NCBI GenBank assembly: GCA_021776055.1
Contig: JAJFGP010000067.1
Coordinates: 1 to 64,000 of the forward strand
DNA length: 64,000 bases
From: Kiloniellaceae bacterium
Lineage (GTDB): Bacteria > Pseudomonadota > Alphaproteobacteria > Kiloniellales > J153
Reading direction: 5' to 3'
Made by a program: the position numbers and the translations under genes. Of the stretch, positions 7,294-27,995 are shown one piece after another (positions within the stretch are counted from its first letter, which is position 1; each line of letters opens with the position of its first letter). Under the pieces are notes generated by a model. That model saw nothing but the letters and a program-made list of their open reading frames with translations. It ran no database searches and was not told the DNA's origin.

Positions 7294-7415
7294 GGCCCCT
7301 CCGTCGTTCCCGGAAAGGTGAACGGGTATCCCGAGTCTCATATAGGCATACCCGGCGCCGCCGTGCCTTTGACGTGCATCAATGCACTGCTCGGCAATGC
7401 TGCTACGATACGCTC

Positions 7416-9014
7416 ATGACTGTAGCCGGGCAAAGTGCGCAAACGCCCAGTGCAAACCTTTCGCACCTTGGTGGCGATGGGCAAAGCGAGGTAGCAGCGT
7501 TCCTGGCTGACCCGTCGGTCCACGGCGAAAAATGTGCGCGCGTGGAACGGATCGACACGCACGGCGCCATGGTCTTCCTCGCCGGCGACCGCGCCTACAA
7601 GGTCAAGCGCGCGGTTCGCTTTCCCTATATGGATTTTTCCACCTTGGAATTGCGGCGCTGGGCCTGCCGCCGCGAGGTCGAGTTCAACCGGCGCACCGCC
7701 CCCGAGCTGTACATCGGCGCCATGGCCATTACCCGCGAGGCCGATGGGGCGCTAGCCCTGGGCGGCTCCGGCGAAGCGGTCGAATGGGCGGTCGTCATGC
7801 GCCGGTTCCCACAAGAGGCACTGGGCGACCGCCTGGCGCAGGCGGGGCGATTGACGCTCGACCTGGCCCGCGCCCTAGCCGATGAAGTCGCCGCGTTTCA
7901 TGACCGCGCCGAGCCGAAACCCGCGGCGACCAGCGGCGGTGCGGCGGGCCTGCGGGCGGTCATGGACGAGAACTTTGCCGAGCTGCGCCAGCGGCCCGAC
8001 CTGTTCCCCGCCGCCGAAGTCGACGATCTTGCCACCGTGGCGGGCGAACACCTGGCGCGGGTCGCCGGGTTACTCGACGACCGGCTGGCCAAGGGCCTGG
8101 TACGCCACTGTCACGGCGACTTGCACTTGCGCAATATCTGCATCGTCAATGGCCGGCCCCGGATCTTCGATTGTATCGAGTTCAACGATGACATCGCCTG
8201 TATCGACGTGCTCTACGATTTGGCCTTCCTGCTCATGGATTTGGAGCATCGGGGCCTGCGGCCCCATGCCAACCTCATTCTCAACCGCTACCTGCAGCAC
8301 CGCGACGATGTGACTGGGCTGGCGGCATTACCCTTGTTCCTCTCGACCCGCGCCACCGTACGCGCCAAGGTCAGCGTCAGTGTCGCCGATAGCCAGACGG
8401 ATCCGGAGGTAGCCCGCCGTTTATGCGATGAAGCGACCGGCTATTTCCGCGCCGCCCACGCCTTGTTGCAGCCGGTGGCGCCATGCCTGGTGGCCATCGG
8501 TGGGCTATCGGGCACTGGAAAGACATGCCTGGCGCGGGAGCTGGCACCTGGCCTGGGTGCGCCGCCTGGCGCTCTGCACTTACGCAGTGATGTGTTACGC
8601 AAATCGTACCATGGCATCGATGAACTACACCGCCTGCCCCCGTCCGCCTATGGCGCCACACAGACAGCCGAGGTCTACGCCCGCCTCACCGACCACGCCA
8701 AAGCAGGACTAACCGCCGGGCGCGCGGTTATCGCCGATGCGGTCTATGCGTCTTCGGCGGAGCGTGCCGCCATCGAGGCGGTCGCCCGTGAGCTAGGTGT
8801 CCACTTTGTCGGGATCTGGCTGGAGGCGCCGGCCGAGCAAATCGTCGGCCGAGTCGCGGGTCGCCGGGGCGATGCCTCGGATGCCACCCCCGCCGTCGTG
8901 CGGCAGCAATTGACTTACGATCTTGGGCCGCTCACCTGGCGCCGGCTGGACGCTTCCGGTGCCCGCACGGCCATAGCCGCCGAGGCGGAGCACCTGATCA
9001 AAAACGCGAGCTAG
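7416..9014 (+). CDS. Bifunctional aminoglycoside-phosphotransferase-like / AAA ATP-binding protein
   Basis: APH-like HCHGDLHLRNICIVNGRPRIFDCIEFND followed by P-loop GGLSGTGKTCLARELAP. Confidence 0.85.
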   Translation: MTVAGQSAQTPSANLSHLGGDGQSEVAAFLADPSVHGEKCARVERIDTHGAMVFLAGDRAYKVKRAVRFPYMDFSTLELRRWACRREVEFNRRTAPELYIGAMAITREADGALALGGSGEAVEWAVVMRRFPQEALGDRLAQAGRLTLDLARALADEVAAFHDRAEPKPAATSGGAAGLRAVMDENFAELRQRPDLFPAAEVDDLATVAGEHLARVAGLLDDRLAKGLVRHCHGDLHLRNICIVNGRPRIFDCIEFNDDIACIDVLYDLAFLLMDLEHRGLRPHANLILNRYLQHRDDVTGLAALPLFLSTRATVRAKVSVSVADSQTDPEVARRLCDEATGYFRAAHALLQPVAPCLVAIGGLSGTGKTCLARELAPGLGAPPGALHLRSDVLRKSYHGIDELHRLPPSAYGATQTAEVYARLTDHAKAGLTAGRAVIADAVYASSAERAAIEAVARELGVHFVGIWLEAPAEQIVGRVAGRRGDASDATPAVVRQQLTYDLGPLTWRRLDASGARTAIAAEAEHLIKNAS

Positions 9015-9278
9015 TGTGGTGGAACGGAAATTCACCGCATCTAGGATCGCTTTTCCGGTCCTCTGGGTAGGAAGCGTCGCGCTGGCGATGCCAAAGCATC
9101 GGCGAGCGGCGGTGACGCCCTCCAGAGGGCCGGAAAAGCGACCCTTCGGGCGCCCTTGCGGGCCGCTCGGTCGTCGTTGCGCGGGCCTTGTGATGCGACA
9201 GCATCACGGCGACCCACGCGCCTAGCCGAGCAACCCGCAAGGGCGTCCCAGATACGGTGAATTTCCGTTCCACCACAC
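9014..9278. mobile_element. Palindromic MITE-like element (copy 1): perfect 24-bp TIRs, TA duplication, two internal hairpin arms
   Basis: Left end GTGTGGTGGAACGGAAATTCACCG is the exact reverse complement of the right end; flanked by TA (9012-9013, 9279-9280). Inner arms 9048-9140 (CGCTTTTCCGGTCCTCTGG/CCAGAGGGCCGGAAAAGCG) and 9151-9245 (CGCCCTTGCGGG..GCTCGG/CCGAGC..CCCGCAAGGGCG). Confidence 0.85.
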
Positions 9279-10084
9279 TAAGCCAAACGCGCGTATCCGT
9301 GCGCCTTGGCATCGTTTTCAATCTCGATAATCCGGTCGTAGGCGCCCTCCGGCAGCACCTCGGCGCCGGCAATTAGGAGCGTCTCGCGCGCCGCCGCCAG
9401 GTCGGGATCATCGACGGCCGCGAACAGGGCGGCGCGCAAGCGCTGGAGCAAATCGTCACTGGCATTGGCCCGCGTGACATAGGGCAGTCCCGGTGCATCC
9501 ACCGTCGTGCCCAGCACTCGCAAATTGGCCACCGCCGCAGGACGATGCCGGGACAACAGCGTGTGCGTCACGCAATCGACGGCGCAAGTGTCAGCCTTGC
9601 CCTCGGCGACCAGCGCCAGACTATTGGCGTGGCCACCGCTTATCACGACTTCGGAAAAGAAGCTGCCGGATCGGGCGAGCGGCGCGATCGTGCCACGCAA
9701 GGCGCTGTAGCCGGATTGAGAGTCGGGTCCGTTAGTCGCCGCAACCCGGCCACGCAGATCGTCAAGGGTGCCAGCCGTATCGTCCGCGCGCACGATCACA
9801 AGGCTGCAATACCGTGGACCTTCGCACCCAGGGCAATCGAAGCTGGGTGTCGCCACGACGCGTAATTTCCCCGCGAATTCATGCATCAACGGATAGCCGC
9901 ACGTCTGACTGAACAGCAGATCGGGCGCCAGCCAGGCCGGCTTGACGTCGTTGGCGCGGTGCAATCCGTCGGGCACATCCGCGATGCCCTCGCGCCGCAT
10001 CGCCTGGGCAAGCCCGGCCCACCAGGCATCGGTCGCCGCGGTCACGTCCGGCAGATCGTACATGGCGAGGCTGGCGACGCTCAT
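9278..10084 (-). CDS. PhnD-like phosphate/phosphonate ABC substrate-binding protein
   Basis: MSVASLAMYDLPDVTAATDAWWAGLAQAM...LLFSQTCGYPLMHEFAGKLRVVATPSFDCPGCEGPRYCSLVIVRADD... Confidence 0.8.
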   Translation of the reverse strand: MSVASLAMYDLPDVTAATDAWWAGLAQAMRREGIADVPDGLHRANDVKPAWLAPDLLFSQTCGYPLMHEFAGKLRVVATPSFDCPGCEGPRYCSLVIVRADDTAGTLDDLRGRVAATNGPDSQSGYSALRGTIAPLARSGSFFSEVVISGGHANSLALVAEGKADTCAVDCVTHTLLSRHRPAAVANLRVLGTTVDAPGLPYVTRANASDDLLQRLRAALFAAVDDPDLAAARETLLIAGAEVLPEGAYDRIIEIENDAKAHGYARLA

Positions 10085-26267: not shown

Positions 26268-27500
26268 CTAGTGACTCGCCGCCGTGGCGCCCATTTCGTT
26301 CGCCAGATCGTAGGTGGCAAAACGATCCAGGCGGAAGGGCTTCAGGATGTCGGGCACGCGCCCGGTCGCCACGGTCTCGGCCATGTACTTGCCTGAGACC
26401 GGCGTCGCCTTGAAGCCCCAAGTGCCCCAGCCCGCGTCCAACCAGTAGTTTTGTAGCGGGCTTTCGCCCATGACCGGGCTGTAATCCGGCGTCATGTCGG
26501 TCAGGCCGGCCCACTGGCGCAACATCTTCACCTCGGCCAGGAAGGGGAACATCTCCAGGGTGTGGGCGATCAGGCTTTCTTTCAGTTCCAGGGTCGAGCG
26601 GGTCGAATAAAGCTCGTACGGATCGGAGCCGCCGCCGATCACCAACTCGCCGCGCGCCGTCTGCGATACATAGGCATGCAGCGCCGCCGAGCTGACCAGC
26701 GGATCGAGGAACGGCTTCAGCGGTTGTGTAACCATGGCTTGCAACGGGAAACTCCGAATCGGCAAGCGGAAGCCGGCCATGGCGGCTAGCTGCGAGCTCA
26801 TCCCCGCCACCGCCTGGACCACATGGCCGCAGGCGATGACCCCGCGCGTGGTCTCGACACCGACGGCCTTGCCTTTGTCGCGGCGGATGCCGGTCACCTC
26901 GGTGCGTTGGTGCAACTCGACGCCCATCTCGGCGGCGCGCGCCGCATAAGCCCAGGCCACGGCGTCGTGCCGGGCCGTCCCCCCGTCCCGGTGCCAGAGG
27001 CCGCCGAGAATGGGGTAACGCACGTCATCGTCCATATGTAGGCAGGGCACGATCTCGCGAATTTGCTTGCGGTCGACCATCTCGGAGCGAACGCCCAGAT
27101 GCTTGTTCACCTCGGCGCGCAGGCGAAAGGTGCGCAAGGAAGCATCCGAGTGGGCCAGGGTAAGCTGGCCACGCTGGGAATACATGATGTTGTAACCGAG
27201 GTCGTTCGAGAAGCGGGTGAACAGCTCCACCCCTTCTTTATAGAAACGCACCGATTCCGGGGTGATGTAGTTGGAGCGGATAACCGCCGTATTGCGCGCC
27301 GTATTGCCGCCGCCCAGATACCCCCGATCGAGCACACAGACATTGCGCACGCCCCAGTGCTTGGCCAAGTGGTAAGCCGTCGCCAGGCCATGCCCGCCGC
27401 CGCCGACGATGACCACATCGTAGGATGGCTTGAGCTCGCTGGGCGGCGGCAGATCGCGCCGGCCGCCCCTTACGGCGTGTCTGAGCAGTCCAATTGGCAT
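26268..27500 (-). CDS. soxB: Sarcosine oxidase beta subunit-like (copy 1)
   Basis: [55 protein letters not shown]... Confidence 0.92.
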   Translation of the reverse strand: MPIGLLRHAVRGGRRDLPPPSELKPSYDVVIVGGGGHGLATAYHLAKHWGVRNVCVLDRGYLGGGNTARNTAVIRSNYITPESVRFYKEGVELFTRFSNDLGYNIMYSQRGQLTLAHSDASLRTFRLRAEVNKHLGVRSEMVDRKQIREIVPCLHMDDDVRYPILGGLWHRDGGTARHDAVAWAYAARAAEMGVELHQRTEVTGIRRDKGKAVGVETTRGVIACGHVVQAVAGMSSQLAAMAGFRLPIRSFPLQAMVTQPLKPFLDPLVSSAALHAYVSQTARGELVIGGGSDPYELYSTRSTLELKESLIAHTLEMFPFLAEVKMLRQWAGLTDMTPDYSPVMGESPLQNYWLDAGWGTWGFKATPVSGKYMAETVATGRVPDILKPFRLDRFATYDLANEMGATAASH

Positions 27501-27522
27501 GGCTTCGCACGTTAATACCAAA

Positions 27523-27767
27523 TCTCACTGATATGGACCCATTTCATGGGGCGTATTGGCCTTCCGGTTAGGCGCACGGCGCAGCGCGATGCGGGACATC
27601 GGGCAAGCCGTGCAACGCGGCCGGAAGGCCAATACGCCCCACCGAAGGCCGCCATCTTTTGTCCGTCGGCGTCGTTGCGGGCTGCTTGTGGTGCTCGCAA
27701 CACGGCGCAACCCGCGCCGATCCCACGGGCAAAAAATTGGCGGTGAAAAGGGTCCATATAAGTGAGA
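27523..27767. mobile_element. Palindromic MITE-like element (copy 2): 18-bp imperfect TIRs and two hairpin arms
   Basis: TCTCACTGATATGGACCC pairs with GGGTCCATATAAGTGAGA (17/18). Arm A 27548-27640 with perfect 20-bp stem GGGGCGTATTGGCCTTCCGG/CCGGAAGGCCAATACGCCCC; arm B from ~27657 TTTTGTCCGT..CGGCG/CGCCG..ACGGGCAAAA. Confidence 0.8.
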
Positions 27768-27995
27768 AGGGGTTTTAGGGCGCGGTGGGCGGCGGCTGCC
27801 CGGCAATCGACACGTTCCCGCCAAAACACGCCAGAGCCCATGTTCCCGTCAATGCCGAGTCGCCGCAAGGGGCACATTCCTTAACGGATAGCCACTTGGC
27901 ACCAAAATGGGTATGTTGCCCCAGAGGCACGTGGCGCACGGCCCTGGGCCGTGCCAATGCACGCGAGCCGCCAACAAACGAGAGGGAGAGCATCA

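Follow-up and report, generated by a model that had tools for sequence, protein, structure and literature searches.

A palindromic element at overlapping stop codons of a Kiloniellaceae bacterium and its probable place in a family of MITEs with a two-module core and varying ends

Bacterial MITEs are usually regarded as the kin of one parent transposon and are identified by their ends. Among the small repeats described, RUP of Streptococcus pneumoniae is 107 bp long and IS630-Spn1 has been proposed as its mobiliser (PMC2229807). NEMIS has been proposed as a target of RNase III, and ERIC alters transcript stability in an orientation-dependent manner (PMC2229807). The PATEs of Haloquadratum are archaeal, have no terminal inverted repeats and come from IS605-type ends (PMC3119063). 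Here, a palindromic element was analysed in a 64,000-nucleotide stretch (the window) of a Kiloniellaceae bacterium (GCA_021776055.1, contig JAJFGP010000067.1, positions 1 to 64,000). The family to which it belongs combines a constant interior with ends that vary across transposase families.

The element and its insertion site

The element at 9014-9278 is a palindrome of 265 bp, or 269 bp when its TA flanks are counted (9012-9280). A preliminary description of the sequence had reported perfect 24-bp terminal inverted repeats (TIRs), a TA on either side and the absence of a transposase gene, and all of these were confirmed: GTGTGGTGGAACGGAAATTCACCG is present at 9014-9037 (plus strand) and 9255-9278 (minus strand) with 0 mismatches, where 0 such pairs of the 24-mer are expected by chance, the TA flanks are located at 9012-9013 and 9279-9280, and the longest stop-free stretch within the element is 89 codons. 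The pairing of the ends runs beyond these 24 bp, and together with the TA and an inner part the stem reaches about 34 bp; the left and right TIRs were placed at 9014-9044 (plus strand) and 9248-9278 (minus strand). In addition, the interior contains two hairpin arms of 23-24 bp, which were absent from the earlier description. By homology and a covariance model (R1), these correspond to module 1, a hairpin of a 98-nt class with its sense on the plus strand (9045-9143; 97.3 bits, E 1.4e-21), and module 2, its inverted homologue with the sense on the minus strand (9149-9247; 96.4 bits, E 2.4e-21), and a 5-nt linker (9144-9148) forms the centre of a mini-hairpin CCC-TTC-GGG between them. Folded as single-stranded DNA, the element reached -119 kcal/mol, compared with -60 +/- 4 for shuffled sequences (z -15.7, 0/200).

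The two flanking genes are convergent, and both have their stop inside an element end. The upstream gene (7374-9014, plus strand) encodes APH-like and AAA_33 domains, and the downstream gene (9278-10084, minus strand) encodes a phosphonate-type ABC substrate-binding protein. As had been noted from the sequence, the TAG stop of each is made of a TA and the first base of the element, with the left target duplication joined to 9014 for the plus gene and the right one joined to 9278 for the minus gene. Rejoining the flanks without the element gives gcgagctaagcc, in agreement with the predicted empty site, and a congener from the same genus (G001) was found to possess both orthologous genes in convergent orientation without the element. 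These orthologues are 81% and 86% identical to the flanking genes, and their stops overlap on opposite strands of one CTAG, in AATCAAGACTAGGCCAGGCG, with a single TA. Since the empty CTAG is shared by both stops in the congener, the insertion hit a shared stop site and, as judged from these sequences, spared both proteins, intact or nearly so. The expectation that both genes would keep the same last residue held for the minus gene, of which the final residues (RLA*) are kept in the congener, but not for the plus gene, which ends a few residues differently.

Among the genes pointing at an element, 18 of 72 end exactly in its terminal stop and 9 of 72 end in another frame within the element end, both counts being approximate as the gene calls were ORF-based. 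Of 72 non-coding CTAG sites away from elements, 24 are themselves stop codons. When an element seeks CTAG and its copies in coding regions are purged, it will often end up at stop codons, and insertion at overlapping stops means that such an element can enter between genes with neither protein's end altered. In two IS630 transposons (L150:1330-2490 and L158:274-1368), the transposase frame was likewise observed to use the TAG at the transposon's own terminus as its stop.

The two-module core

Arm 1 aligned over its full length with the reverse complement of arm 2, indicating one homologous module of about 98 nt present as two inverted copies. When 25 copies with differing ends were aligned, compensated two-sided changes were found in 74 of 97 consensus pairs, and for the module alone covariation was found in 32 of 36 pairs. 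The invariant bases of the module are the termini GA...CC, the loop bases A.G of AGG and AC of ACG, and the tip stem ATG...CAT. The covariance model of the module gave at least 41 matches in the window genome and matches in at least 33 of 61 relatives of the order, these order-level counts being lower bounds with at most 67 candidates scored per genome, and it detected the module in 16 of 146 genomes of many families across the class. The named records that contain the module belong to Alphaproteobacteria or are unclassified proteobacterial MAGs, and most are Rhodospirillales. The records include Kiloniellaceae bacteria and Denitrobaculum tricleocarpae, of which the isolate R148 has many copies.

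The layout of 79 distinct elements consists of an end of about 34 bp, the module, usually 5 nt, the inverted module and a 34-bp end, and the paired core keeps a nearly constant geometry of about 269-272 bp. Solitary modules are rare, the module being nearly always in a full paired element with ends; departures from the layout take the form of insertions within a module or, rarely, of modules in inverted or direct arrangement. The covariance model also identified a second, more degenerate member of the family in the window (27512-27776), with type C ends (AATACCAAATCTCAC..., AATACCAAATCTCACTGATATGGACCC) and modules at 27545-27643 (plus strand) and 27647-27745 (minus strand). This member adjoins the end of an ORF of annotated length (26268-27521, minus strand).

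Several variant arrangements were observed. At L061:1539-1633, module 1 lies in reverse with respect to the ends, and on contig 253 of G005 (7779-7979) the two modules are in direct orientation; both cases suggest that the hairpin arms have mediated inversion. A G-rich hairpin (GGGGG.CGCGGGGGCG.CCCCCGCAT...) is nested in one module, mostly at the same 3' internal loop, of elements whose ends differ (L268:1906-2167, L192:5862-6123, L199:4471-4726, L257:7013-7334, where it occurs twice, L213:2487-2739 and L216:4140-4457), and it resembles a further small repeat with the hairpin as its target.

A coding function of the module was rejected, since the loop lengths differ by 1-2 nt among copies. In Rfam, no family scored above the gathering threshold and relaxed E-values gave chance-level matches only, and no match was found in the plasmids searched. 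A literature search, which covered few subscription papers, found no description of such a core, and the element family spread through Alphaproteobacteria is apparently undescribed.

If the stems were kept merely as double-stranded palindromes, G.T and A.C mismatches would be equally frequent. With each of 170 modules aligned to its own reverse complement, which makes the alignment strand-symmetric, 349 G.T and 88 A.C mismatches were counted in the module orientation with the invariant base pair excluded (27 vs 10 positions, p 0.008). The invariant A.C at the module base (169 modules) opposes this bias, and the ratio is 349:257 when it is included. In the TIR stems of the same elements the ratio was 54:59, which differs from that of the modules with a Fisher p of 7e-11 when shared ancestry is ignored. 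Since the bias holds in the orientation of each module although the two modules lie on opposite strands, it is a property of the module rather than of one strand of the element. This suggests selection on a single-stranded fold, for which RNA is the simplest explanation and ssDNA is also compatible. A count of 408:50 from the RNAalifold structure was set aside, as that structure favours G.T; pairs predicted on both strands gave 121:41.

Ends, target sites and related transposons

The element had first been read as an IS630-type MITE, a view that agrees with its ends, CTAG target and TA flanks but that missed the conserved two-module interior. A TIR search detected two more full copies of the same TIR class and two TIR remnants in the window genome, as well as many copies in relatives, of which 16 of 61 contain the element by DNA. 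The copies are dispersed over sites that are unrelated to one another. Intact IS630 transposons with matching ends, for which a search had been suggested, are present in relatives and have a CTAG target. They are 1.13-1.18 kb long and CTAG-flanked, and the IS630 identity of their transposases was given by both Pfam and NCBIfam (251-281 bits in NCBIfam, cut-off 100). Their ends agree with the end classes of the small elements at 19-25 of 30 positions, and 0/200 shuffles were as good: the ends of transposon L150 pair with class A, those of L158 with class B and those of L151 with class D, while the closest fit of L149 is to an intermediate end. The end class to which the window copy itself belongs is matched at class level only, by L150 (21/30). 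As a control, three IS630s with TAGAGC ends did not match the element ends. The exact GTGTGGTGG end was found on no IS-sized element, and the exact 14-bp end, taken as a 14-mer, occurs in 3 of the 395 Alphaproteobacteria genomes searched.

The window genome, a 183-contig draft assembly, yielded one sub-threshold DDE_3 fragment but no intact IS630, and three module-rich relatives (G003, G006 and G007) had no intact IS630 either, so the transposition step is one that we infer: the ends, the target and the empty site point to an IS630-family transposase that would have moved the element in trans. A matching transposase in the same genome is not strictly required, as the source may have been lost.

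The TA flanks expected at other copies were found on both sides in 31 of 62 elements other than type C, but on one side only in 27 and on neither side in 4, and copies with TA on one side only are interpreted as having decayed after insertion. Where TA is present on both sides, the commonest context is a CTAG at both ends (21 of 31 elements). The type C elements (TACCAA ends; e.g., L168, L161 and L048) have not TA but equal 3-bp TNA flanks (TAA, TTA, TGA) in 10 of 17 cases, and may follow a different enzyme or target rule; compared by eye with the IS630 transposon L148, their ends have just TACCAA and ATGAC in common, and no source was established.

Fragments of elements were also found. Two truncated copies with a single type A end are present in the window genome (contig 133:9294-9328 and contig 49:62706-62741; L005 and L012 of G000), and mini-elements of about 48-50 bp consist of two type A ends joined without modules (L099:1500-1537 and L087:1474-1530). 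At L028:1739-1845 in G002, an apparent further IS with ends like GGTCCTGTTGACAATTAA has its start immediately at a type E element's TAG.

Among the elements compared, the core occurs between at least five end classes. In G119, from a more distant part of the class, a 269-bp element has the ends TAGCCCGCATTTCTCAAAC, and the same genome contains a 1646-bp transposon with the ends TAGCCCGGATTTCTCACAC, which encodes a transposase of the IS1380 family (NF033539, 405 bits, cut-off 180). In G188, also elsewhere in the class, several 272-bp elements have the ends TAGGAGCCTGTCTGAGAATT, and a multicopy IS-like repeat, located mostly at contig ends, has the ends TAGGAGCCTGTCCGAGTAAT. The frame of this repeat begins with MSKTFRPWDVDQVWLFPPS, which we take to recall IS1182; a family scan of its 20-residue start found nothing. 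Because intermediates link some of the classes within the IS630 range, with classes A and B bridged in this way, divergence explains part of the variety of ends in that range. IS1380 ends on the same core are harder to explain by divergence. Related copies differ by grouped changes present at both ends (GGGCC in L054, GGTTCC in L037 and GATCTTGG in L056), a pattern that would fit a transfer of sequence from one end to the other by way of the palindrome.

Proposed origin and comparison with known systems

The preferred explanation, to which we assign a probability of roughly 0.7, is that the element is a MITE whose ends track transposases, that is, a non-autonomous cut-and-paste element with a satellite-like core. 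It would have inserted at the TA of the shared stop site CTA(G/A) with an IS630-family transposase acting in trans as the mover, duplicating the TA and regenerating TAG for both genes. The family would be defined by its core and not by its ends: both modules recur with unchanged spacing between IS630, IS1380 or third IS-like ends. The module pair would behave as a satellite with ends that track the available transposase, and the palindrome could bring this about by letting one end be copied onto its partner. Each module would be selected for as a single strand, in the orientation that is its own. Both are in sense when read from the outside inward, so a transcript from either flank would fold a sense module first, and this folding would give the element and its neighbours shielding or insulation via termination, processing or stability. 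Such an RNA role of the modules, preferably shielding or insulation from outside transcription, is proposed tentatively on the basis of the strand bias. It is possible, though at somewhat less than even odds, that the family is a class-wide satellite of transposons in general and not derived from a single one, a conserved inverted pair of structured modules acting as RNA, of which the ends have been repeatedly swapped among unrelated transposases (several IS630 groups, IS1380 and a third family). If true, a large, unlisted structured family would have spread through Alphaproteobacteria by borrowed transposases.

An unlikely alternative is an ordinary MITE radiation, in which IS630 ends have simply diverged into the end classes, each lineage co-evolving with its transposase, the interior is inherited passively and the hairpins reflect just the upkeep of palindromes. 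The intermediates between classes A and B agree with this, palindrome correction alone could maintain the complementarity of the arms, and the invariant A.C pair runs counter to the strand bias. However, IS1380-type ends on the same core are hard to derive from IS630 ends, and passive upkeep predicts neither an excess of G.T in the modules only nor invariant loop bases and a 98-nt length across the class.

The extreme fold, the convergent placement at the window locus and modules that are sense-first from either side would also suit an element that the host retains between convergent genes because it is useful as a bidirectional terminator or a stabiliser of 3' ends. This is improbable, since convergent sites are not enriched (14 convergent, 39 tandem and 10 divergent, with 47, 127 and 42 among background gene pairs), the congener is without the element, and no T-run is visible in the sequence 3' of the hairpins. 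A REPIN-like origin, with paired inverted palindromes moved as ssDNA by a Y1 (RAYT) transposase and the terminal repeats being secondary, could account for the two inverted modules, a strand-specific fold compatible with ssDNA and the invariant GA...AGG...CC bases, but it is very improbable given the 34-bp terminal repeats, the TA flanks or duplication, the targeting of CTAG, the match of ends to those of IS630 and IS1380, and modules that are almost always within a complete paired element with ends and not solitary.

Compared with known systems, the MITE with transposase-tracking ends proposed here appears nearest in mobility to RUP, with its IS630-like ends and TA. Both are intergenic, present in many copies and without a transposase, with TA at the termini and ends that resemble those of an IS630, a resident one in the case of RUP. 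As compared by description, RUP is short, lacks paired homologous modules and is tied to one IS, whereas the core described here occurs between ends of several IS630 groups and of IS1380. In presumed RNA effect, the nearest systems appear to be Correia/NEMIS of Neisseria and ERIC of enterobacteria, which are likewise TA-flanked palindromic repeats and whose transcripts fold (PMC2229807). They lack a conserved inverted module pair, and no end exchange between IS families is described for them. In Caulobacter and Brucella, CIR is also an intergenic structured repeat of Alphaproteobacteria (PMC2229807, PMC10969869), but it carries a GANTC methylation site, and none is present in the window element (9012-9280). 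PATEs and SMR-A share with the element the character of transposase-free palindromic mobile repeats, and SMR-A inserts inside palindromes (PMC3119063), like the G-rich hairpin nested in some of the modules.
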